IMG/VR virus record: IMGVR_UViG_3300044451_000303
Coordinates: 1-37,565 of that record
DNA length: 37,565 bases
Strand: one strand, 5' to 3'
From: a virus
Position numbers and translations under genes: made by a program. Below the pieces are notes generated by a model. That model made no database searches, was not told the origin of the DNA, and saw only the letters and a program-made list of their open reading frames with translations. Below, piece by piece: positions 1,138 to 36,950 of this stretch; the first letter of the stretch is position 1; every line of letters starts with the position of its first letter.

Positions 1138-1992
1138 TCAGCCGCCGCGGCCGCCCGAAATGATGAGCTCGGGGACGGCCTTCGCCTTGTCGTTTCCGCC
1201 GACCTGATAGGTGGTCCAAACCTCCTCAAAATCGAAGCCGGCGAAGATCTCGCGCACGTCCGGATGGTCGTTGAGACTGAGCAGGAAGCGCCCCCTGATC
1301 GACGCCAGCAGCTGGGCCATTTCCTCGAACTCGGGACGCCCGAAAAGCGGCTTGCCGTCGTCACCGACGTAGTCCTTCTCCGACCCGTAGTAGGGCGGAT
1401 CGAGATAGAAGAGTGTGCCCGGACGGTCATAGCGGGCGATGAAGTCTGCCCAGGGCAGGCGTTCGATGACGACGGGGGCCAGGCGCTCATGCGCGGCCTC
1501 GAGCAGCGGTGCGAGCTTGGTGATGTCGAAGCGCGCGGCCGTCGTTGGCGAGACGCCGAAGGTTCGGCCGGACACCCTGCCGCCGAACGCATTCCGCTGG
1601 AGATAGAGGAAGCGCGCGGAGCGCTCCAGATCGGTCAGCGTGGTCGGATCGGTGCGGAGCAGCTGCTCGAAGCCGATGCGCGTCGTCAGCTGAAATCGAA
1701 GCATGTCCATGAACGCGACATAGTGCCGCTGCAGGATGCGAAAGAAGGTCGCGACATCGGCCGACCAGTCGTTGATCGCCTCCGCCTTCGGCCGATAGTC
1801 GCGGCGCAGAAAGATGCCGCCCATGCCGACGAACGGCTCGGCATAGGTGGTGTGCGGGATCGCGGCGATCCGCTGGACGATGACCTTCGCGAGGTTGCGC
1901 TTGCCACCGATATAGCCGGCGACGGGACGGGTGGGCGCGATGGGCAACAGCCCCGCGGCCGGAGTGAAAGACGGACTCGACACAGCTACCAA
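1138..1992 (-). CDS. D12-class DNA N6-adenine methyltransferase (Dam-like)
   Basis: 284 residues. It transfers a methyl group from S-adenosylmethionine to adenine N6 in DNA. Visible motifs in D12 order: YIGGK at 27-31, the SAM-binding loop AEPFVGMGG at 51-59, and the catalytic DPPYY at 198-202. The length matches the family. The only upstream start is TTG at 1992, with AGGG just before it; the next ATG would remove the SAM motif. It is the outermost minus-strand gene, 288 bases from MuF, so it may have its own promoter. Mu carries a different DNA-modification gene (mom) near one genome end; here a methylase may likewise protect phage DNA from restriction. The target sequence cannot be read from the protein. 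Confidence 0.9.
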   Translation of the reverse strand: MVAVSSPSFTPAAGLLPIAPTRPVAGYIGGKRNLAKVIVQRIAAIPHTTYAEPFVGMGGIFLRRDYRPKAEAINDWSADVATFFRILQRHYVAFMDMLRFQLTTRIGFEQLLRTDPTTLTDLERSARFLYLQRNAFGGRVSGRTFGVSPTTAARFDITKLAPLLEAAHERLAPVVIERLPWADFIARYDRPGTLFYLDPPYYGSEKDYVGDDGKPLFGRPEFEEMAQLLASIRGRFLLSLNDHPDVREIFAGFDFEEVWTTYQVGGNDKAKAVPELIISGGRGG

Positions 1993-2280: not shown

Positions 2281-3516
2281 TCATGACCGGCGATTATCCA
2301 GCACGATGTCGAGATTGCGCGTCTCGGGCGTGATGTTGCGCGGGCGGCTCTTGTGGAAGCTGACGATGATCGGGAGCGCGTCGCCGCTGTCCTGGCGAAC
2401 AACGGCCTTCCAGATGCGCCCGGCCTCATCGGCGAAATAGACGAGCCGGCTGTCCCCCTGCTTCGCGATCACGATCGCGCGATCGATGATGTCGGGGAGC
2501 AGGCGATAGTCGCCGATCGTCAGTTCGGCGTGGCCCGCCGATATCTCCGGCGCCGCGCCGCTTTGCTTGCGATAGACGCCCGCGGGCATGACGACGATGC
2601 GCGAGTTCGATCCGATCAGCGCCCGGTGCGCGTCATCGATGATGGCGACCGGAAACACGCCCTCGGGCATCGCGGCGAACTGTTCGAACGCGGGATCGTT
2701 GACCAGCTCGCGGAGCGTCTGGCGGGCGAGCTGGTCGAGGCCGGCGTCGAGCGCCGACGCCAGCGACGCGGTCGCGCGATCGGCGACGACGCGAAGATGG
2801 GCGGTGCCGGGATTGTAGCCGAAGCCCGGCGCGATGCCTTCGGGCACTGAGACGATCTCGCCTGCGGCGGTGATGAAGTCGTGGCGCGGCGGATCGGGCG
2901 CCTCGCCGACCTTCCAGCCCATCCGCCGCATCCGGGCCTCGCTGACCTGTTCGACGCGGCAATTGCAGCCCCAGCCGTTCGGCGGGAAAAGCCACTGCCA
3001 CGCGGGATGGTCGACCGGAAGGATCAGGCCGTGCCAGCTCTTGTGATTGAGGCGCGGGTGCTTGCGATAGTGGTCCGACAGGTAGCGGAGATAGGGGAAT
3101 AGCGCCTTTTCACGCTGATATTTGCGCCAGCGGCCCGCCGCGATGCTCATCCGCACGTTGGTGCGGTAGATAGTACGTAGACGGCGATCGTTGACTACGA
3201 CGGGTTCAGGCGTTCCGGTCAGCGCCTCGTTCTCCACGACGCCCCACCAGCCGTGCCTCTTCAGATCCGGCAGCAGATTGGCCTTCCACTGCTCGAAGGT
3301 GCCGCCGTTGCGGATGACGTCGTCGAGCGAGTTGCGGATCGAGACCAGGAGATCGAGCTTCGCGACCTTCGCCACGGTGAAGGCTGCGGCGTGCTCCTCC
3401 ATCCATGTGTCGGTCCAATGCGTCGAGAAGAGATAGCCCGACCGCTCGGTCCAGGCGGCGACGATGTCGCCTGGGTCCATGTAAATCGTATCGGAGAGGA
3501 TGGGGCGATCAGCCAC
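2281..3516 (-). CDS. MuF-type head protein with C-terminal PBECR-like nuclease domain
   Basis: 411 residues. Residues about 45-195 are the MuF head-morphogenesis domain: RTIYRTNVRMSIAAGRW (114-130) and the GWGCNC element (181-186) are characteristic. MuF proteins sit inside the head near the portal. Residues about 290-411 are not needed for that fold and resemble the PBECR (phage-Barnase-EndoU-ColicinE5/D-RelE) toxin domains often fused to MuF: H329, Y337, K370, S386-H388 and R391 are candidate active-site residues, with strands at GRIWKAVVR and ALPIIVSFHK. Such domains are thought to be injected with DNA. The start is GTG at 3516, overlapping the previous stop by 8 bases; the ribosome binding site is weak. 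Catalytic activity is inferred. Confidence 0.85.
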   Translation of the reverse strand: MADRPILSDTIYMDPGDIVAAWTERSGYLFSTHWTDTWMEEHAAAFTVAKVAKLDLLVSIRNSLDDVIRNGGTFEQWKANLLPDLKRHGWWGVVENEALTGTPEPVVVNDRRLRTIYRTNVRMSIAAGRWRKYQREKALFPYLRYLSDHYRKHPRLNHKSWHGLILPVDHPAWQWLFPPNGWGCNCRVEQVSEARMRRMGWKVGEAPDPPRHDFITAAGEIVSVPEGIAPGFGYNPGTAHLRVVADRATASLASALDAGLDQLARQTLRELVNDPAFEQFAAMPEGVFPVAIIDDAHRALIGSNSRIVVMPAGVYRKQSGAAPEISAGHAELTIGDYRLLPDIIDRAIVIAKQGDSRLVYFADEAGRIWKAVVRQDSGDALPIIVSFHKSRPRNITPETRNLDIVLDNRRS

Positions 3517-3763
3517 AGGAGACCCCGGCGTTCACCCAATCCGCGCCGCGATCGGTCAGCTCCCAAAAATAGCTGTTAGGCACCGAATAGCGTTCCGACC
3601 GACGAACCATTCCTGATTTTTCCAACGACTGCAGTCGGCGCGTGACGCGGCGAAGATGTCGATCGGGAATGCCGAGCCGATCAGCAACGTGATAAGCGCG
3701 ACCGCCGTTTCGCAATGCCCGCGCGATGGAGTAGTCGGTCGGGAATTCCGTTGCTCCGGCCAT
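3509..3763 (-). CDS. Small winged-helix protein
   Basis: 84 residues. A predicted winged helix spans most of it: PTDYSIARALRNGGRAYHVA followed by a recognition-like helix RHLRRVTRRLQSLEKSGMV and a wing ending in FWELTDRG. It probably binds DNA. Its ATG at 3763 shares one base with the stop of the upstream gene, and its own stop overlaps the MuF start, so it is translated in the portal-MuF transcript. A regulator among head genes is unusual; it could control the methylase or late switching. It is not a known head protein. Confidence 0.7.
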   Translation of the reverse strand: MAGATEFPTDYSIARALRNGGRAYHVADRLGIPDRHLRRVTRRLQSLEKSGMVRRSERYSVPNSYFWELTDRGADWVNAGVSCG

Positions 3764-3876
3764 CACTGCCTCCGTTCGAACAGAAACCACACCGTGAAGT
3801 CGAGCGCCGCCTTCGCGACAAAACCGAGCAGGAAGGCGCGCACGAGGTCTGTTACGGAGAAGCATGTAGGGTCCAT
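3763..3876 (-). CDS. 37-residue membrane-associated small protein
   Basis: The reading frame is ATG at 3876 to TGA at 3763. The middle is hydrophobic, with LVRAFLLGFVAKAALDF and VWFLF, fitting a single membrane or amphipathic helix, and the end ERRQ is basic. It shares one base with each neighbour (TAATG and TGATG), which argues that it is a real translated gene. Function unknown; a lysis or injection accessory is possible. Confidence 0.5.
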   Translation of the reverse strand: MDPTCFSVTDLVRAFLLGFVAKAALDFTVWFLFERRQ

Positions 3877-4151
3877 TACTGCCTCCGCTGGTTGGGCGCG
3901 TCGCCGCCCGCGATCATGTCGGCCATCGACTGCATCGCGCTGGCGTTCATGATGGCGACGGCTTCGAGCGCGAGTTCGGGCGTTGCAGCGCCGCGATGCA
4001 GGATCTTCGTGGCGGCGAAGCTGAGGGCCATCGCCGTCGTGATCTCGTCGAGGCCGAGGGACTTGGCTGCGGGAACGGTTTCGCGGACGAGAGCTTCGGC
4101 AAGTGCGCTCATGGCGACGGTCTCTTCTTGTGTCGGATGGCCCGTCATCAC
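3876..4151 (-). CDS. Unrecognised phage protein, alpha-helical
   Basis: About 91 residues, mostly helical and Ala-rich, without cysteines or membrane segments. GTG at 4151 overlaps the upstream stop as GTGA; ATG at 4148 is the alternative start. It lies in the tightly packed cluster between portal and MuF. I do not recognise a family. The overlap pattern and codon use support a real gene. Confidence 0.6.
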   Translation of the reverse strand: MMTGHPTQEETVAMSALAEALVRETVPAAKSLGLDEITTAMALSFAATKILHRGAATPELALEAVAIMNASAMQSMADMIAGGDAPNQRRQ

Positions 4152-4306
4152 TCCACTCCTTTGTTCCGCGATGAAAAAGGCTTGGCGGTCTGCATCACAC
4201 GCAGAGTTTCATCGCGAGCCGGGTTCGGCTGGTTCATGATGTTGGACGGGCAGTCGCAACGTGGGCTGTGCTGTGACCGCCCGCATTGGGGGCATTTCGG
4301 GTCCAT
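4148..4306 (-). CDS. Small zinc-ribbon-like protein
   Basis: 52 residues from ATG at 4306, which shares one base with the upstream stop (TGATG). The N-terminus has CPQC at 5-8 and CDC nearby, a likely one-zinc knuckle (CxxC...CxC). A longer frame begins at 4381, but that start is inside the upstream gene and lacks a ribosome binding site. Function unknown; small zinc proteins of this kind in phages may bind nucleic acid or protein. Confidence 0.55.
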   Translation of the reverse strand: MDPKCPQCGRSQHSPRCDCPSNIMNQPNPARDETLRVMQTAKPFSSRNKGVE

Positions 4307-4758
4307 CACTCCGCTCCCTCGGTAAGGGCGGCGCGTTGCTGTTCGACGCGGCGACGGTTCAACGTTGAGCGGATTGTGCAAAGCTTGGCGTGCAATCCTT
4401 GTCCGATACCCCAGTGGCTGCGCGAGTGTGATCGCTCGTTGATCTCGTCAATCAGCGCTATTGCTTCGTGAACTGCCATCCCGACGTCTCCGGAGAGGCC
4501 GTGCGATCCCTCCCCCGCATCGGCTTGCGATGGTCGTGAATGGGCGAGCATGGCTTCAAGCTCGGCGGGATCATCATAGGCATCTTGAGAGATCGCCCAC
4601 TGCCGTTCGATCTCGGCATCACTCAACGGGAACGGCGCCTTGTTGCCGTTGCTGATCATCGCTTCGGCGTAGCAAGCGCCAAAGCCCATCTCGAAAAAGA
4701 ACTGCGCGGGGCTGCGTTCGTCCACCTGCGTCACAATCGTTTCATCGGTCATGGTCAT
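4306..4758 (-). CDS. Unrecognised 150-residue protein next to portal
   Basis: Starts at ATG 4758 (with a second ATG two codons later), overlapping the portal stop as ATGA. Acidic N-terminal half (AEIERQWAISQDAYDDPAEL) and a C-terminal helix ending NRRRVEQQRAALTEG. No membrane segment or known motif. It resembles the small uncharacterised proteins often encoded after Mu-type portals. Function unknown. Confidence 0.65.
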   Translation of the reverse strand: MTMTDETIVTQVDERSPAQFFFEMGFGACYAEAMISNGNKAPFPLSDAEIERQWAISQDAYDDPAELEAMLAHSRPSQADAGEGSHGLSGDVGMAVHEAIALIDEINERSHSRSHWGIGQGLHAKLCTIRSTLNRRRVEQQRAALTEGAE

Positions 4759-6794
4759 TCTCCATCGTCAGCATCGAGCGTGGCGGCGAGGCCTGCGGCC
4801 TCGAGGTCGGCGGCGATCGGGGCCTCGTCGCCGGGGGTGAGGCCGAGGGTGGCGAGCAGTTCCTCGGGCGAACGAGCGGCGCGAATAGCGCCGAGCATCG
4901 GTTCGGTGAGCGCGCGGACGGCGCGGTAGCCGTCCTCGGCGATCAGATCGTCGACCAGCTTGTCGGTGGCGCTGTCGGGGGCTTCGGCCTGCGTCTCGGC
5001 GAAGCTCGCCTCGCGGATCCGCGTCTGCCAATCCTCCTCGAGCGGCTCGAACATCTCGGGGCCGAAGCGCAGCTCGCCGCGGAACGGCGTCACCTTCGAC
5101 AGGTCGACGTCGCCCTGCCAATAGGTGAAGGTGATGTGCGGCAGATAGTCGGGGTAATCCCAGCTGCAGCCGGCGTCGCGCATCTCGCGATTGCGCTGGT
5201 TGAGGTGGCCCGAGAAGAAGTGCAGCGCCACGGCGCCGTCGCTGCCGATGCGTTCGACCAGGCGCGGCCCGCCATAGGGTACGAGATGGTCGCTGGTGTC
5301 CGGTCCCCAGCCCCAGAAACCGCCCATCTTCATCCAGTTCACCGGGCGCCGCGAATACATCACGGTGGTGTGCAGATCCTTCGGGTCCATCAATCGGGTG
5401 AAGCCCTGCTCGCGCGCCCAGGCGAGCAGCTCGAGCGCGCTTTCCTCCTTCAGCGGCCGATGGACGTAAAGCGGGCGCGGATCGTCAGCCGCGAAGCTGA
5501 TATTGCGGTCGTTGACGTTGGGATCGGCCTTTTCGGGCTGATCGTCCTCGCCGGCATCGGGATCGTCGACCTGGACGTCGTCGCCACCGGGGGCCGAGGT
5601 TTCCGATTTCGGCTTGCGGGCGTAGCCCTCGCCATAGGTGTCGTTGAAGCTCTCGTCGGTGCGCTGCCAGCCGAGCCGGTCGAGTACCTCGTCGGTTTGG
5701 GCGGTCTTTTGGACGTCCTCTTCCTCTTCGACCTGTCGCATGACGCGCGGCGCGGCGACGTCGGGGCCGAAATTCAGGTCGGTCCACCAACGCGCGACCT
5801 CGGCGAAGCTGTCGGAAAGAAGGTCGGAGTCGGACTTGACCACCTCCATCTTCACATCGGCATGGACCTCGCCCTGGCTGCGGCTCGATCCGTTGTCGGT
5901 GGTCATCGTCTGCGACAGGACGATCTTCGCGATCGCGGCGTCCATGTAGCGGACCATCGTGCCGTAATCGGCGGTGCCCGATCGCGCGGCCTCGAGCAGA
6001 TCGACCGCCATGCCCTCGGGGATCGTGATGCCGCTGTCGGTCGAGATCGCGCCGAGCGCCTCGAGCAGGCGCTCCTGGTCAGCCTTCGGAGTGCCGGGGC
6101 GATATTTGCCGATGGCGGTCGGCGAACCGAACTTGTCGAGAAAGATATTCCAGAAGCGGATGCCGTTGCGCTTGAACAGCGTCGGCCAGTAGAGCCATTC
6201 GGCGAGGCCGCGGCCGTAGGGCTCGTCGTCGTTGGTACCGCCGACCTTGAACACCCAGAATTTGCGATCCGGCAAGATCTCGCCGAGGCCGCCGACCGAT
6301 GTCAGCAGGCGCAAGCGACCCTGGACGTCATAGCGGAACCGGCGGGCGTGGCGGACCTTGATCGCGCCGATGTCGATCAGGCCGTCGCGGACCTCCCACA
6401 TGATTTCTGCGACTGCAGGGCCGTAGAAGACCGCCCAGAGCATCTTGCCCGTGATGCGGTCCCAGCCGATGCGGTCGATCGTGTTGCTGAACGCCTCGGC
6501 CGCGGCGACAGATCGCGGGTCGGTTTCCTCGCCGGCCACGACGTCCCATGTCCGCGACACCACGGCGCCGCGGCGCTGCTGCATCGTCGAAAAGACCTGA
6601 TCGTCCTGCAGGATGCGGTCGTAGATGCCCCAATCGACCGAGCCGGCGAGGCGCGGGTCTTTCGGTTCGCGCAGGCCAGTGATGAACGGCTGGGTGATGT
6701 CGCGGCCGTCGGCCGTCGTGGCGATCTCGCCCGCCAGATCGGCGGGTAGCGTCGTCTTGGCAGCGCGGGTGCGCGTGCCCCTGGGACCAGTCAT
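4755..6794 (-). CDS. DUF935-type portal protein with inserted Acb1-like 2H phosphoesterase domain
   Basis: 679 residues, about 150 more than a usual Mu gp29-type portal. Residues 1-390 are the portal core: DWGIYDRILQDDQVFSTM, VVSRTWDVV and DKFGSPTAIGKY are typical. Residues about 437-596 are an inserted domain with two 2H phosphoesterase motifs, HTTVMY (H475, T477) and HITFTY (H553, T555), a LYVHRP strand with Y443 and a FGPEMFEPLEEDW end. This pattern matches Acb1, which cuts CBASS cyclic nucleotide signals. SFAA (433-436) and SFAE (597-600) flank it. Residues about 605-679 are the ordinary portal C-terminal tail, so the domain is an insertion, not a fusion at the end. ATGA overlaps on both sides. 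Portal assignment is firm; Acb1-like activity is inferred from motifs. Confidence 0.9.
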   Translation of the reverse strand: MTGPRGTRTRAAKTTLPADLAGEIATTADGRDITQPFITGLREPKDPRLAGSVDWGIYDRILQDDQVFSTMQQRRGAVVSRTWDVVAGEETDPRSVAAAEAFSNTIDRIGWDRITGKMLWAVFYGPAVAEIMWEVRDGLIDIGAIKVRHARRFRYDVQGRLRLLTSVGGLGEILPDRKFWVFKVGGTNDDEPYGRGLAEWLYWPTLFKRNGIRFWNIFLDKFGSPTAIGKYRPGTPKADQERLLEALGAISTDSGITIPEGMAVDLLEAARSGTADYGTMVRYMDAAIAKIVLSQTMTTDNGSSRSQGEVHADVKMEVVKSDSDLLSDSFAEVARWWTDLNFGPDVAAPRVMRQVEEEEDVQKTAQTDEVLDRLGWQRTDESFNDTYGEGYARKPKSETSAPGGDDVQVDDPDAGEDDQPEKADPNVNDRNISFAADDPRPLYVHRPLKEESALELLAWAREQGFTRLMDPKDLHTTVMYSRRPVNWMKMGGFWGWGPDTSDHLVPYGGPRLVERIGSDGAVALHFFSGHLNQRNREMRDAGCSWDYPDYLPHITFTYWQGDVDLSKVTPFRGELRFGPEMFEPLEEDWQTRIREASFAETQAEAPDSATDKLVDDLIAEDGYRAVRALTEPMLGAIRAARSPEELLATLGLTPGDEAPIAADLEAAGLAATLDADDGE

Positions 6795-8458
6795 AGCCCG
6801 TAACCTCCATCATTCTTGCGCGCGACGGTGCCGAAGCCGCGCTGGGTGAGTTCCATCTCGCCGCCCGTCGTCGCGCGGTTGCCGGAGCTGAGAAATTCGA
6901 TGTCGCCGGGATCTTCGTTCGCGGCGGCGACGAGGTGCATTGCCGAGATCGCGGTATCGCCGTGGCGCTTCGCGATCTTGCCGTCCTCCTTGCTCGCGCG
7001 CGGCGAGTCGGGGATCTTCGGCACACCGCGCACCTGCTTGATCATCCGGATATCGTCGAGGACGCCCTCGTCGAACGGGAGGAGAAGGTTGCGGTCCTCG
7101 ATGCCCGATTTGAGCAGCGGCATGTACTGCAGGTACGTCTTGTCGCTGGCCATCACCGCTTCGATGACATCGAAGCCGAACAGCATCTGCAGGGCTTCGG
7201 CGAGCGCCGAGCCGTTCCCGCGACCATCGACCTTGCCGCGCGCGAAGTGCGGCACGCGGTTGATCAGCCATTCGATGATGAACTGCTGATCCGAGAAGGG
7301 CACATTGCGCATCTCGAGCGTCAGGCGCGTTACGAGGCGCATGTATTCGTCATGCTGTCCGAACATGACGGGCGAGACGTCCCCGCTGCGCGCGAAATCC
7401 TGCCCCATGAAAGTGCGGCGTGTGGGATCGAAATTCGCGAGCCAGGGCTTGACCTCGGCCTCGAGGAATTCGAGCAGCCAGTCGCGACGGCGATCCTCGT
7501 GCCAGCGCTCGAACCCGTCGGGGCAGCGCAAGCGGACGACGGGCAAGTCCTTCGACATCGCCTCGAGGATCGTGGCGCGGGCGAGATAGGTACCCGACCC
7601 GCGCGACGGAATCACGTCCAGCTCTTCGTCCGCGGCCTCGAGATAGGATTTGCGGATGCCCGCTTCCCATGCCTGCTCGGCCTCCAGCGTCCATTCCTTG
7701 CCGTTGACCAGGCAGATGCGTTTGTAGAGGCCCGCGGCGATCGCGTCCTTCAGGGTGATGCGCTGGACGTAGCCGGCGCGCTTGCCCGCGCGGATCTCCT
7801 CGATCAGCGTATTGAAATAGTTATCGGTCCCGTCGTGGGTCGAAATCACGATGACCTGGCCGCCCCACATCAGGGCCGCGAGGATGGCCTTGATCAGCTG
7901 CTCGAGGTTGTCGTGAAAGGCCGCTTCATCGATGATGAAGATGCCCTGCTTGCCGCGCACCGATCGAGGGCTCGACGGGAGGGCTGCGACGGCCTTGCCT
8001 GAGGGGAAGTCCACGCGGAAAGCCTTCACCGACTTGCCCGCGTCGCCGTTGATCAGGAAGCCACCCTGCGCTTCGGTCACCACCTGATCGCGGCGATAAT
8101 CGGCGTCCTTGGCGTCGACCAGGACATCGCCTTTGGCATCGAGGAAGCTGCCATCCTCGCGCTTCACGACGTAAGCGACATTTTCGTCCGGCAGCGACAC
8201 GACGACATCGTCGAAGGCCTTTGCGAAATCGGCGCAATAGCCGATGAATTCGCGGGCCATGTCGAGGTTGTAGCCGATGTAATAGACGTTCTGCGGCGCA
8301 CGCGCGGCCGAGGCGGCGAGATCAGCATAGGGCGCGAACGCATAAGACAAGCCGATGCGACGGGACTTCTCGACGATCAGCAGCTGATGCTCGTCGGCCA
8401 GGGCAAGGCTTTCCTGCTGGTATGGGAGCAGGACTTCGGGGGCGGCTACCTCCGACAT
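6791..8458 (-). CDS. Terminase large subunit (Mu gp28-type)
   Basis: 555 residues. This is the packaging motor ATPase and nuclease. An atypical Walker A lies in EKSRRIGLSY (about 31-40) and Walker B in IFIIDEAAF; the ISTHDG segment follows as motif III. The C-terminal RNase H-like nuclease starts at FMGQDFARSGD. It starts at ATG 8458, 13 bases inside the upstream gene with GGGGATG before it, and its stop overlaps the portal start as ATGA. The long upstream in-frame extension to 8797 is not needed for any motif and was not used. Confidence 0.93.
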   Translation of the reverse strand: MSEVAAPEVLLPYQQESLALADEHQLLIVEKSRRIGLSYAFAPYADLAASAARAPQNVYYIGYNLDMAREFIGYCADFAKAFDDVVVSLPDENVAYVVKREDGSFLDAKGDVLVDAKDADYRRDQVVTEAQGGFLINGDAGKSVKAFRVDFPSGKAVAALPSSPRSVRGKQGIFIIDEAAFHDNLEQLIKAILAALMWGGQVIVISTHDGTDNYFNTLIEEIRAGKRAGYVQRITLKDAIAAGLYKRICLVNGKEWTLEAEQAWEAGIRKSYLEAADEELDVIPSRGSGTYLARATILEAMSKDLPVVRLRCPDGFERWHEDRRRDWLLEFLEAEVKPWLANFDPTRRTFMGQDFARSGDVSPVMFGQHDEYMRLVTRLTLEMRNVPFSDQQFIIEWLINRVPHFARGKVDGRGNGSALAEALQMLFGFDVIEAVMASDKTYLQYMPLLKSGIEDRNLLLPFDEGVLDDIRMIKQVRGVPKIPDSPRASKEDGKIAKRHGDTAISAMHLVAAANEDPGDIEFLSSGNRATTGGEMELTQRGFGTVARKNDGGYGL

Positions 8459-8880
8459 TGGCGCATCCCCTTCCGGCGCTTGGTGTGGGGCAGGCAGCGG
8501 ACGGTTGCGTCGGCGTCGAACCATTCGGCGGCGCCGGAGACGATGCGGTCGATCATCGAACAGCCGAGGGCGAGGCCCGAGCTGCCGTCGAAGCTGACAA
8601 AATCGAGGTGCGGCATCGCGTGGCCGGTGCGACGCGGGCGAAGGTGGTTCGAGATCCGCATCCGCCACTGGCGGCCCGCGGCGTCGCGCATTGTGAGGTA
8701 GAGGCTGGCCGAGATTTTCGCCCGGCTGCGCTCCAGCTTGTCGATCTTCAGCCCCTTCGCCTGGGCATGGTCGCGCAACGCATAGGCGAGCTTCCACGGC
8801 ACGGGCGCAAATACGCCGTCCTCGGGCCGCCTGCCGGCTGCGCGCATATAGGCGCGCGGCGAGGCCGGCGCCGCCTTCAC
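8446..8880 (-). CDS. Unrecognised protein between the terminase subunits
   Basis: 144 residues from GTG at 8880 (GTGA overlap with the small terminase stop). Basic, with an RQWRMRISNHLRPR segment and a C-terminal CLPHTKRRKG. The central MPHLDFVSFDGSSG stretch looks like a compact beta domain. It is not a known terminase subunit. Its position suggests a packaging accessory, but no motif supports a particular function. Confidence 0.65.
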   Translation of the reverse strand: MKAAPASPRAYMRAAGRRPEDGVFAPVPWKLAYALRDHAQAKGLKIDKLERSRAKISASLYLTMRDAAGRQWRMRISNHLRPRRTGHAMPHLDFVSFDGSSGLALGCSMIDRIVSGAAEWFDADATVRCLPHTKRRKGMRQCRR

Positions 8881-18894: not shown

Positions 18895-19881
18895 ATGACG
18901 ATTGAAACCGCCACCGACAAGCCGTTGAAGCCGATCCGGATATTCCGGAAAGGGACGTTCACGTCGGTCGAGGGCGACCAGATCACCTTCGGTGAAGCCG
19001 AGCTGGCGGGCATCGTCTCCAGCTATAACGCCGAAGCCAACCCCGCGCCGCTGGTCGTCGGGCATCCCAAGCTCAACGATCCGGCCTATGGCTGGGTCGA
19101 TCGTCTGGCGATCGAGGATGGCGAGGTTGTCGCCTATCCGGATCCAAAGCTGACCGAGCCGGCGTTCGCCGAGGCTGTCAATGCCGGGCGCTATCGCAAG
19201 ATCTCCGCGCAATTCTATCCGCCCGCCAACGCCAACAACCCGGTGCCGGGCGAATATTACCTGAAGCATGTCGGCTTCCTCGGCGCGCACCCGCCCTCGG
19301 TCAAAGGCCTGGGCACGGTGAGCTTCGCCGACGGCGATGTCGGCCCCCTCGTCACCTTCGAACAGGAGAATGTCATGTCGGACAGCAACGACAAAGATCG
19401 CGAAAGCAAGGATAAGGAAGTCAGCTTCGCCGAGCGCGAGAAGGCGCTCAGCGACCGCGAGGCCGCGATCAAGGCGCGCGAGGATGCGGCCAACGAAAAG
19501 GCCGCGGCGGATCGTCACGACGCCAATGTCAGCTTTGCCGAGGGGCTTTTCGCCGCCGCGAAGATCAAGCCCGAGGGCAAGGATCTGCTGATCGGCGTGC
19601 TCGACGCGCTGGGCGAATCGAACGCCGACACGATCAGCTTTGGCGAAGGCGCCGAGCTGACGCCGCGCGATGCGCTGGTCAAGCTGCTCGATGCGGCGCA
19701 GCCGCTCGTCAGCCTGGGCGAGGCCGCGGCCGACGACGGCAAGGCGATCGGCGAGCTCGATCCCGCCGCTATCGCCGAAGAGGCCGCCTCGTTTGCCGAG
19801 AGCGAAGCCAAGGCGGGTCGCCCGATCTCGACGGCGCGCGCCGTCCGTCACGTCACCGAAAAAGCAAAGAAGGGAGCATAA
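18895..19881 (+). CDS. Prohead protease/scaffold (Mu gpI-type)
   Basis: 328 residues. Residues 1-140 are the protease: PAPLVVGHPKLNDPAYGWVD, ISAQFYPP and HVGFLGAHPPSVKGL match Mu I. Residues 160-328 are charged and helical, the scaffold. The motif (V/I/A)SFAE or a close variant occurs at 142-146 (SFAD), 176-180, 212-216, 247-251 (SFGE), 272-276 (SLGE) and 298-302. These may be self-processing sites, as the protease must destroy the scaffold; cleavage there is inferred. Same tetrapeptides flank the Acb1-like domain of the portal. It is the first late gene, and an internal scaffold start is given separately. Confidence 0.87.
   Translation: MTIETATDKPLKPIRIFRKGTFTSVEGDQITFGEAELAGIVSSYNAEANPAPLVVGHPKLNDPAYGWVDRLAIEDGEVVAYPDPKLTEPAFAEAVNAGRYRKISAQFYPPANANNPVPGEYYLKHVGFLGAHPPSVKGLGTVSFADGDVGPLVTFEQENVMSDSNDKDRESKDKEVSFAEREKALSDREAAIKAREDAANEKAAADRHDANVSFAEGLFAAAKIKPEGKDLLIGVLDALGESNADTISFGEGAELTPRDALVKLLDAAQPLVSLGEAAADDGKAIGELDPAAIAEEAASFAESEAKAGRPISTARAVRHVTEKAKKGA
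19375..19881 (+). CDS. Internal-start scaffold protein (Mu gpZ-type)
   Basis: In-frame ATG at codon 161 of the protease gene has AGGAG at 19364-19368 with a 6-base spacer, a better ribosome binding site than the main gene has. Translation from here gives the 168-residue scaffold alone, as in Mu, where Z is made from inside I. The residues are highly charged and coiled (REKALSDREAAIKAREDAAN). Not proven by sequence alone, but the signal is strong. Confidence 0.7.
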   Translation: MSDSNDKDRESKDKEVSFAEREKALSDREAAIKAREDAANEKAAADRHDANVSFAEGLFAAAKIKPEGKDLLIGVLDALGESNADTISFGEGAELTPRDALVKLLDAAQPLVSLGEAAADDGKAIGELDPAAIAEEAASFAESEAKAGRPISTARAVRHVTEKAKKGA

Positions 19882-19885
19882 TCCG

Positions 19886-20266
19886 ATGGCTGGCCTGAGC
19901 ACCACCCTCACCAAGAATTCCAGGGCAGAGGCCGCCGTGCCGCGACGCCGCATCGTCAAGTTCGGCGCCGCCGACAACGCGGTCCTCGTTGGCGCGGCCT
20001 CGACCGACAAGATCTTCGCCATTTCGTCGGAGATCGACGCGGCGATCGGCGAGCCTTGCGACATCCATATCGGCGGCATTGCCGAGGTCGAATACGGCGG
20101 CGCCGTCACCCGCGGCGACTATCTGACGTCCGATGGCGTCGGCCGCGCGGTCGCGGCCGCGCCGGGCGCGGGCGTCAACGCATCGATCATCGGGCAGGCG
20201 ATGGTGTCGGGCGTGCTCGGCGACATCGGCAGCTGCACCATCTTCCCTGGGCGCATCCAGGGCTGA
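19886..20266 (+). CDS. Capsid decoration/stabilisation protein
   Basis: 126 residues from ATG 19886, with AGGGAG upstream. GGIAEVEYGGAVTRGDYLTS followed by DGVGRAVAAAPGAG and IIGQAMVSGVLGD is the beta-barrel pattern of DUF2190/gpD-like cement proteins. Position between protease and major capsid fits. It strengthens the mature head. Confidence 0.75.
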   Translation: MAGLSTTLTKNSRAEAAVPRRRIVKFGAADNAVLVGAASTDKIFAISSEIDAAIGEPCDIHIGGIAEVEYGGAVTRGDYLTSDGVGRAVAAAPGAGVNASIIGQAMVSGVLGDIGSCTIFPGRIQG

Positions 20267-20324
20267 TCCCGTCCCGGCGTTTCGGCGCCGGGGTTTTCCG
20301 ATCCCGTTCAATTGAGGAGCGACT

Positions 20325-21254
20325 ATGTCTCTGTCCGCCTACCCCATCGATCCGCACCTCACCGCGATCGCCATCGCCTACAGGAATGCGGCCTATATCG
20401 CCGACCAGGTGCTGCCGCGCGTGCGCGTCGGCAAGCAGAAGTTCACCTTCCTGCAGTATGCGTCGGATCAGTACTTCAACATCCCCGACACGCTGGTCGG
20501 GCGCCGGTCGAAGCCGAACGAGGTCAACCTCGAGGCGACCGAGGTGACCGACTCGACGTTCGACTATGCGCTCGATGGCGGCATCCCCAAGGCCGACGAG
20601 GATAACGCCGACGAGCGTTACGATCCGCTGGGCAGCGAAGTCGAGTTCCTTCAGGAACTGATCGCCCTCGATCGGGAGGCGCGCGCAGCCGGTCTGGTGT
20701 TCACCAACGGCAACTACAACGCCGGCCTGCGCCAGACGCTCTCGGGCACGTCGCAGTTCAGCGACTATGCCAACAGCACGCCGATCAAGAAGATCAACGA
20801 GGCGCTGGACCTTCCGCTCGTCCGCCCGAACCAGATGGTGTTCGGTCAGGAGGGGTGGACTTCGTTCCGCCAGCACCCCGAGATCGTCGAGGCGGTGCTC
20901 GGCACCGGCGCAAAGAAGGGCAATGTGACGCGCCAGGCCGTGGCCGAGCTGTTCGAGGTCGACGAAGTCGTCGTCGGCGCTTCGCGCAGCAACTCGGCCA
21001 AGCGCGGACAGGCTCCGGCGCTGACGCGGTTGTGGGGCAAGCATCTGGCGCTGACCCACAAGGCGCCGGTTCCCGAAGCGAAGGGCGCGCTGCAGTTCGG
21101 TGCCACCTTCCAGTGGGGCGACCGCATCGCTGCCCAGTGGGAAGACAAGAATATTGGCATGCGGGGCGGCACGGCCTGCCGTACCGGCGAGAGCGTCAAG
21201 GAACGCATCGTCGCGAACGACGCCGGCTACTTCTTCAACAACGCCTTCGCCTGA
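20325..21254 (+). CDS. Major capsid protein
   Basis: 309 residues. No membrane or signal. RVGKQKFTFLQYASDQYFNI, then the SEVEFLQELIALDREARAA helix and PNQMVFGQEGWTSFRQHPEI match a family of HK97-fold capsid proteins in alphaproteobacterial transposable and other phages. It lies after the protease and decoration genes and before a strong terminator. It is not of the Mu gpT type. The order and length support the call. Confidence 0.85.
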   Translation: MSLSAYPIDPHLTAIAIAYRNAAYIADQVLPRVRVGKQKFTFLQYASDQYFNIPDTLVGRRSKPNEVNLEATEVTDSTFDYALDGGIPKADEDNADERYDPLGSEVEFLQELIALDREARAAGLVFTNGNYNAGLRQTLSGTSQFSDYANSTPIKKINEALDLPLVRPNQMVFGQEGWTSFRQHPEIVEAVLGTGAKKGNVTRQAVAELFEVDEVVVGASRSNSAKRGQAPALTRLWGKHLALTHKAPVPEAKGALQFGATFQWGDRIAAQWEDKNIGMRGGTACRTGESVKERIVANDAGYFFNNAFA

Positions 21255-35217: not shown

Positions 35218-36950
35218 TGCGAATCGGGTTTGGAGCAGGTGGAAAGCGCAAGAAGCCAAGTGGCTACACGGGTGGCGGCGCCCTCCCGCCCGTCACCAAT
35301 GGCATTATCCATGATATCGACAACGATAGCGATGGGGGGGACATCCTCAACACGCTCGTCGCGATCAACGGCGGGCATCATCACCGCGGACTCACCAAAC
35401 TGCTGGCGTTCGTCGTGACTAGCGCGAACGACTATGCCGCGCCGATGGTAGAGGCACAGCTTGCGTTTCACGGCTACACCGATGTTGCGGTCGGCGCGGT
35501 CGTCGATACAACGGGGACGCCTGCGTCCTTTGCGCTTAGGTCGCAGAGCGTGTTTACCCAGTCCGTTCGGGACCAGTTCAACCCGACAAAGTCTCGGACC
35601 AGCTATCAAACGGAGGTCGCCGTCTATAAGGAGGCGCTGGCCAAATGCGCTGATGGAACATGCAAGGTCATCATCACCGGCGGCTTCACCAGCATTGCCC
35701 GCTTGCTCGCTGACGCGGCTGGCAAGGCGCTACTCGCGCAAAAATGCGCCGCTATCTATTGCATGGGCGGCCATTTCACCAACGCGGCCTTTTCCGAAGC
35801 GAACATTCATACCGATCAGCCCGCAGCAGCGTATTTCTGCGCAAATGTTCCTGCTGGCATTCCGGTGATTTGGGCGGGGTACGAGGCTGGAAACACAATC
35901 CTAAACTACCTGCCGACGGATTACGGATTTACGACATCCACTGACCCCAACATGCGGGGAATCAACCTGTTTCAGGGCAATTACAACCCCCTGCCGGTAT
36001 GGGACCACATCGCGACGTTCTACGCGCATTTCGGCCTTGGCACGGACCCGGTGAGCGGGGGGGCGCTGTTCGGGCTCTCCTCGCCGCAGGATGTGACATT
36101 CGACACCAACAACTATACGGTCAAATCGGCCAATCCTTCGGGCCAACACCGCTATTTGTCCAAAGTCGCCGCTGACAACATCATACAGGCCGTGCTGCAG
36201 CGCGAGGTTTACGAAGCCTATCATCGTGCGACCGCTTCGTGGGTGGCACAGGACGCGATCGAGGCGGGCAGCGGTTATCGCAGCCTCTATCAGTTTTACG
36301 GAAAACTCGACGCTGGTTCGGGCCAGACAGTGGCCGACAGTAGTGGCTATGGGCGCAACGGCACCTTGGGGCAGTCTGCATCTGTGGCTAGCGACGATCC
36401 AACCTGGATTGCGCAGGGCCTTCAATTCGATGGATTGAACGATCTTGTATCAGTACCGCACAGCGCGGGGTTCAATAGCCGCCACTTGTTCATGTGGGCT
36501 ATCGTTTCGATCAGCGCGACGGGCGCCGTGCAGATTTTTTCTGCCCGCGACGACGGCGGATCAAATCGCCAGTTCCATTTTCGGGTTAATGCCTCGAACC
36601 AATTTGAATTCATCGCCTTCAATGGCGGTGCTGTAACGGTCACGGCAACCAGTCTGACGCTGTCGCCGGGCAACTGGTATCTCGTTAGCGCAGAAATCTT
36701 CGATCAGATCGTCATTCTGCGGAATGGCACCACGATTGTCGCGGCTGCTTCAACAACGATAACGAATGGCTGGGTGGCAATCTCGGCAAGCACCCCTCTG
36801 ACGCTTGGCGTTCGGGGGACGGCGACCAACCCGCTTAACGGCAAGATAGCAGCCTATGGCCTGATGCGCGATCCGCCCGCCGACAAGATTAATTCTGTTC
36901 TAGCGGATGCTGCGGCTTTGGCGGTGACGAAAGGGATAACCCTGTCATGA
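35217..36950 (+). CDS. Tail/spike protein: nucleoside-hydrolase-like domain plus LamG-like domain
   Basis: 577 residues. Residues 28-300 resemble the inosine-uridine nucleoside hydrolase fold: IHDIDNDSDGGD (31-42, compare DxDxxxDD), LLAFVVTSANDYAAPMVEAQ, KVIITGGFTSIARLL, and CMGGHFTNAAFSEANIHTD in the middle. Residues about 400-577 are a concanavalin/LamG-like sandwich: LQFDGLNDLVSVPHSAGFNS and QFHFRVNASNQFEFIAFNGG. The first 24 residues are basic and Gly-rich. It follows the spike base and is probably the receptor-binding appendage. Catalysis is uncertain. Confidence 0.7.
   Translation: MRIGFGAGGKRKKPSGYTGGGALPPVTNGIIHDIDNDSDGGDILNTLVAINGGHHHRGLTKLLAFVVTSANDYAAPMVEAQLAFHGYTDVAVGAVVDTTGTPASFALRSQSVFTQSVRDQFNPTKSRTSYQTEVAVYKEALAKCADGTCKVIITGGFTSIARLLADAAGKALLAQKCAAIYCMGGHFTNAAFSEANIHTDQPAAAYFCANVPAGIPVIWAGYEAGNTILNYLPTDYGFTTSTDPNMRGINLFQGNYNPLPVWDHIATFYAHFGLGTDPVSGGALFGLSSPQDVTFDTNNYTVKSANPSGQHRYLSKVAADNIIQAVLQREVYEAYHRATASWVAQDAIEAGSGYRSLYQFYGKLDAGSGQTVADSSGYGRNGTLGQSASVASDDPTWIAQGLQFDGLNDLVSVPHSAGFNSRHLFMWAIVSISATGAVQIFSARDDGGSNRQFHFRVNASNQFEFIAFNGGAVTVTATSLTLSPGNWYLVSAEIFDQIVILRNGTTIVAAASTTITNGWVAISASTPLTLGVRGTATNPLNGKIAAYGLMRDPPADKINSVLADAAALAVTKGITLS

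Follow-up and report, generated by a model that had tools for sequence, protein, structure and literature searches.

Acb1 is an anti-CBASS phosphodiesterase family that was characterised in 2022 (PMC9117128). In the T4 enzyme the catalytic residues are H44, T46, H113 and T115; base stacking falls to Y12, W74, F107 and W147, with E141 in contact with adenine. The protein is made in the infected cell, and its activity is seen no earlier than about 15 min after infection begins (PMC9117128). The idea of a 2H-portal fusion is not wholly new, as 2H domains fused to MuF or portal domains, in polyvalent proteins, were reported in 2017, with a proposed role of the 2H-portal fusions in degrading defence nucleotides (Iyer et al., PMC5512222). 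That account predates the Acb1 assignment, and its accessible part makes no mention of protease-type motifs flanking the domain. In those portals of the DUF1073 family that carry Acb1 (such as Pam3, phiPSA1 and psageB2), a portal core is followed by a linker and then by Acb1. Head proteins of other phages offer further points of comparison. The virion portal of Mu lacks the last 124 of its 512 residues, a loss that the authors attribute to protease I (PMC11915804), and for JBD30 the prohead protease is described as cleaving the scaffold (PMC11445458). DarA and DdrB of P1, counter-defence-type proteins, undergo proteolytic processing and are packaged in the head (PMC5512222); their domains are unrelated and lie outside the portal, so the likeness is by analogy only.

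In this study, we analysed a stretch of viral DNA of 37,565 bases from an IMG/VR virus record (hereafter the window), whose portal gene joins a Mu-family portal and an Acb1 domain in one polypeptide, like the 2H-portal proteins of 2017 (PMC5512222). By sequence, this is a new arrangement, a Mu-family portal with Acb1 flanked by two head-protease-type motifs, and no account of it was found in the literature on Acb1 with portal, virion or DUF1073, our coverage of which was incomplete. The features are listed in Table 1. The terminase gene overlaps the start of the portal gene on the same strand. Pfam assigned the portal core to Portal_Mu (PF06074) with an E-value of 7.9e-100 (334.9 bits against a cut-off of 23.9). 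A full-length model of the portal was poor (pLDDT 55) and was used for the portal core and the low-confidence stretches only; its residues ~50-357 matched the Mu virion portals 9khx and 9knu and that of JBD30, 8rka, at Z ~12 within this low-confidence model, and the modelled portal fold is of the Mu type, in agreement with the profile match. Genes for a Mu-type transposase, an AAA ATPase and a repressor lie in the middle of the window. The head genes are split, with terminase, portal and MuF on 2281-8797(-) and protease and major head protein on 18895-21254(+), and the repressor and transposase genes separate the two sets. A D12-class adenine DNA methyltransferase (PF02086) occupies the left end of the window, 1138-1992(-).

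Table 1. Portal gene of the window, its parts, and the other head genes.
Feature	Position	Strand	Basis or remark
Portal protein with embedded Acb1 domain, 679 aa	4755..6794, stop codon counted in	-	one open frame
Portal_Mu core, residues 57-388	5631..6626	-	Pfam; part retained in Mu virion structure
Predicted head-protease site N-terminal of Acb1, S433-F-A-A436	5487..5498	-	motif model
Acb1 2H phosphoesterase domain, residues 441-591	5022..5474	-	Pfam, predicted fold, T4 residue correspondence
Predicted head-protease site between Acb1 and tail, S597-F-A-E600	4995..5006	-	motif model
C-terminal portal tail, residues 601-679	4758..4994	-	equivalent of part missing from Mu virion
Head maturation protease with scaffold half	18895..19881	+	phrog_976, E 1.5e-75
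Major head protein	20325..21254	+	phrog_1005, E 7e-89
Terminase large subunit, upstream neighbour of portal	6791..8797	-	phrog_2, E 1e-27
MuF-like minor head protein, downstream of portal	2281..3516	-	PF04233, E 8e-14; phrog_220, E 2e-75

The presence of an Acb1-type domain in the portal of the window is confirmed far beyond chance. A search with the Acb1 profile (PF23474), which a preliminary description of this DNA had proposed, gave 126.9 bits against a curated cut-off of 27 (E 6.4e-37), and the domain is inserted ahead of the usual C-terminal portal tail. Neither PADLOC nor NCBIfam matched the portal protein. The two HxT motifs which that description had noticed, HTTVMY (H475/T477) and HITFTY (H553/T555), were located in the 679-residue frame with their histidines 78 residues apart, and the correspondences with T4 Acb1 that it had given were all recovered in an alignment with T4 57B, both for the catalytic tetrad (H475=H44, T477=T46, H553=H113, T555=T115) and for the pocket residues (Y443=Y12, E583=E141 and, for the lid tryptophan, W589=W147). 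H475, T477 and H553 were invariant in 73 related domains, and T555 was threonine in 67 and serine in 5 of them. The position of T4 W74 is occupied by E514 in the window domain, and by E or D in 69 of the 73; that of F107 is occupied by Y547. Because the stacking aromatic W74 is replaced by E514, the substrate preference may differ. Comparison with relatives also agreed with the earlier view that the stretch is missing from plain Mu-type portals (Mu, 512 aa; B3, 488 aa; D3112, 528 aa) and that the portal tail resumes beyond it.

A model of the domain alone (residues 438-600, 73 aligned sequences, pLDDT 88) had Acb1 7t26 as its best structural match, with Z 17.0 and an rmsd of 2.0 over 134 residues, followed by a phosphodiesterase of Burkholderia phage BCSR5 (Z 14.7) and by LigT (about 11). 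The predicted fold is the two-lobed 2H fold of Acb1. The domain is like the Acb1 of T4 (gp57B) and FBB1 (7t26/7t27) in this fold, in the HxT/HxT tetrad and in the equivalents of Y12, E141 and W147; unlike these free proteins it is embedded in a portal, and it differs from them at W74 and F107, with ~26% identity in the structural alignment. Identity to the Acb1 of DUF1073 portals reached 49% among phage records. Between the window and its relatives, dN/dS was 0.10-0.30 for the Acb1 domain and 0.32-1.15 for the linker before it, the linker values being those that were computable (one pair was saturated), and these estimates indicate purifying selection on the Acb1 domain.

The domain in the window portal is bracketed by (I/A)SFA(A/E) motifs. 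All Mu-type fusions carry (I/V/A)SFAA to the left of the cassette and ASFAE, with slight variation, to its right, and their Acb1-free relatives mostly have one such site, at the start of the tail. In an alignment of 21 portals, some with Acb1 and some lacking it, E600 was invariant and A599 nearly so. The scaffold half of the phage's own protease repeats (V/I/A)SF(A/G)(E/D), as VSFAD, VSFAE twice, ISFGE and ASFAE, with a weaker VSLGE. The motif occurred 107 times in 23 protease/scaffold proteins; the number expected from shuffled sequences was 11, and the highest count in 200 shuffles was 18. We then scored the portal with a motif model trained on the protease/scaffold proteins of relatives only, with the window's own scaffold left out. 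The Acb1 borders scored 12.3 (S597-F-A-E600, the best position of the portal) and 10.0 (S433-F-A-A436, the second), the third-best position reached 2.3, and none of 2000 shuffled portals attained the second-border score. A six-frame scan of the whole window (54,760 residues) gave only six other sites with scores equal to or above those of the portal borders: five belong to the protease of the window itself, and the sixth falls in an open reading frame near 35.8 kb. The last of these, TNAAFSEANI, lies at 35778(+) in a 613-codon open frame; its score is as high as those of the portal sites, and the encoded protein had no match among the PHROGs families. Of 15 fused portals, 12 had their two highest motif scores at the two borders, and in the remaining 3 both borders ranked among the first four positions. 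In the full-length model, confidence was low, as in disorder, at residues 397-439 and 589-611, and the borders of the cassette fall in these stretches. The motif that is repeated in the protease/scaffold protein of the same phage thus recurs in the portal sequence, as it would in a substrate of a Mu-type head protease.

Similar signs were seen at the portal tail junction of other Mu-like phages. Mu gp29 resembles the window portal in having a portal core, a junction motif related to its own scaffold and a C-terminal tail missing from virions, and differs in having no Acb1 domain. Its motif, AALSA, lies in the missing portal part and has six close copies in the protease/scaffold protein (0 of 300 shuffles). 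In D3112, IAALA is common to the portal junction and the scaffold (p 0.013); in B3, the junction word TEFAE, of which the scaffold has 3 copies, appears to be that phage's form of the scaffold motif, with a weak p of 0.12. No significant portal-scaffold word match was found for RcapMu, phiSHP3, YPCBV-1 or Mushu, and the motif argument rests accordingly on the window lineage, Mu and D3112. In the portal structure of JBD30, 405 of 526 residues were modelled. Given the loss of the Mu tail, the lineage-own junction motifs and the low-confidence borders, the tail junction very probably serves as a protease site, to which the Acb1 cassette would add a second, upstream one. Five DUF1073 phages were also searched for a scaffold motif at the Acb1 border, with no significant word match. 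DUF1073 portals belong to another portal family and carry Acb1 at the extreme C-terminus, without SFA motifs or a Mu-type tail; excision is therefore not proposed as general for portal-borne Acb1, and we restrict it to the Mu-type group.

Taken together, these observations suggest the following course of events. The portal would be made as a fusion with an Acb1-type cyclic-oligonucleotide phosphodiesterase in its C-terminal region. This region presumably points into the prohead, so that the domain would be carried into it. The portal ring has twelve subunits, which would bring about twelve copies of Acb1 into each prohead. The Mu-type head protease would cut the scaffold at its repeated (V/I/A)SFA|E-like sites and then both sides of Acb1, near A435/A436 and A599/E600, thereby removing the portal tail and freeing an intact enzyme. 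The fragment predicted between the cuts has about 164 residues and 19.2 kDa, a length close to that of T4 Acb1 (152 residues). Twin border motifs shared with the scaffold, and the loss of the last 124 residues from the Mu virion portal, argue that Acb1 is probably cut free by the head protease within the prohead. Once free, the enzyme would cleave 3'3'-cGAMP, cA3 and similar CBASS signals. Its most likely place of action is the next cell, which it would enter together with the ejected DNA; it might also act late in the cell that produces the phage. We consider the explanation as a whole, a portal-borne Acb1 that is excised by the head protease and then cleaves CBASS signals, reasonably likely from the sequence evidence. 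Its more specific form, in which the enzyme is stored in the portal, is released by the head protease and leaves the virion along with the genome, is put forward tentatively. The preliminary description held that a structural protein delivers or stores an immune-evasion enzyme; the building of the domain into the portal was borne out, while the motifs suggest that it is cut out rather than acting as part of the portal.

The same observations could be explained by an active anti-CBASS Acb1 that works within the newly made portal in the producing cell, the border cuts only clearing a bulky domain from the prohead. CBASS responds late, the activity of T4 Acb1 also begins late (about 15 min into infection, PMC9117128), and the DUF1073 fusions occur without a second site. 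Moreover, a type I CBASS senses a prohead protease, according to work cited in PMC12409349, and late head genes would then be expressed at the right time for an antidote. However, a free gene would do for such a purpose, as in T4 or RcXuper, and embedding in a head protein with two retained protease-type sites fits the loading of cargo better; we regard action confined to the producing cell as rather doubtful, and favour cargo over it because a free gene would suffice there. It is also unlikely that the SFA motifs are a structural or scaffold-docking motif of the portal tail and scaffold, with Acb1 staying on the portal. Short hydrophobic motifs can indeed dock proteins to each other, and Pam3 and other DUF1073 portals have their C-terminal Acb1 without an SFA motif, but the motifs of the window portal lie in low-confidence, disorder-like stretches and are repeated through the scaffold. 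Docking also sits poorly with the absence from Mu virions of the portal part beyond the junction, ascribed to protease I (PMC11915804), and with the reported cutting of the JBD30 scaffold (PMC11445458).

The nature of the enzyme has to be weighed as well, since the 2H superfamily is broad and the domain might be an RNA-processing enzyme, either an RNase or a 2',3'-cyclic phosphodiesterase such as LigT or Usb1, instead of an anti-CBASS protein. The PHROGs label for the family is 'RNA ligase', LigT-like structures match at Z about 11, and an RNase role was considered by Iyer et al. (PMC5512222). Acb1 structures are nevertheless the clearly better match (Z 17.0, as compared with 11.2), the Pfam assignment is to Acb1, and the cyclic-nucleotide pocket, with the equivalents of E141, Y12 and W147, is kept, which makes an RNA-processing role quite improbable. 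For the Acb1 that we favour, we infer the cleavage sites, the excision itself, the substrate and the place of action.

Regarding distribution, a portal-core search in the Mu family returned 29 loci, 10 with Acb1, 17 without and 2 apparently cut by contig ends. Fourteen Mu-type Acb1 domains formed one clade in the tree, with support of 100/99. Several independent gains within the Mu group were rejected on this ground, and the simplest reading of the sequences is that the domain entered the Mu portal family once and was afterwards inherited and either lost or exchanged. Even among closely similar portals some have the domain and some do not (L136 has it, L130 does not), so that it behaves as a removable cassette. 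A search among phages for the joined portal flanks of an empty site gave no match, although direct comparison of relatives found portals without the domain. Two relatives, L188 and L189, lie in bacterial genomes of the same order as the Sphingomonadales MAG of L021, L189 being in that MAG itself.

Beyond the Mu group, Acb1 is found C-terminal on Phage_portal_3 (DUF1073) portals in about 60 dereplicated cases, with carriers including phiPSA1-type Pseudomonas phages, Rhizobium phages and cyanophage Pam3 (portal PDB 8hds). The Pam3 portal was absent among the structure matches listed for the domain and full-length models, which could reflect an unmodelled domain, a low rank or a missing entry. 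The preliminary description had suggested a second, independent gain beside DUF1073; the separate, single clade of the Mu-type domains is consistent with such a gain, and the forks that join the portal families in the tree were open. That there were only two cases did not hold, given that Acb1 is also found in PF04860 portals and on proteins bearing domains of the head-protease type, DUF2213 and XkdF. In detail, four portals of a third family, PF04860, carry Acb1 at their C-terminus (L022, L033, L068, L097). In a 110-kb viral contig it lies between ChaB and XkdF-type serine protease domains in one protein (L009:2743-3816), and it is at the N-terminus of proteins of 621-625 aa at L036:2181-4055, L119:3761-5635 and L120:756-2618. 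The Pfam scan covered two of these, L036 and L119, and both match DUF2213, a family adjoining DUF1073 portals and head genes. In addition, Acb1 is fused to an ART-PolyVal ADP-ribosyltransferase domain (L101:3251-4657) and lies upstream of a Gp49-like domain (L038:3827-4888). Roseobacter phage DSS3P8 gp129 (L019:3992-4444), annotated as 'prohead protease', is actually a standalone Acb1-like protein.

In the host order, 19 of 298 genomes had a SMODS-type nucleotidyltransferase above the cut-off, and the two genomes carrying Mu-type fusions had sub-cut-off SMODS matches only, which says little either way. A link to CBASS is suggested by the sensing of a phage prohead protease by a type I CBASS (cited in PMC12409349) and by the fusion of Acb1 to DUF2213 and XkdF protease-type domains. 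If packaged and freed by the head protease, Acb1 would be on hand as soon as infection starts; alternatively, its appearance would coincide exactly with the onset of head assembly, which some CBASS systems sense. If true, the phage would deliver a counter-defence enzyme that relies for its release on the protease class sensed by some CBASS systems, and the system offers a direct way to test whether enzymes that counter nucleotide-signal defences are packaged by phages. Furthermore, the rule that the portal junction motif is the lineage's scaffold motif, as seen in the window group, Mu and D3112, could predict processed, possibly packaged, cargo in other Mu-like phages.
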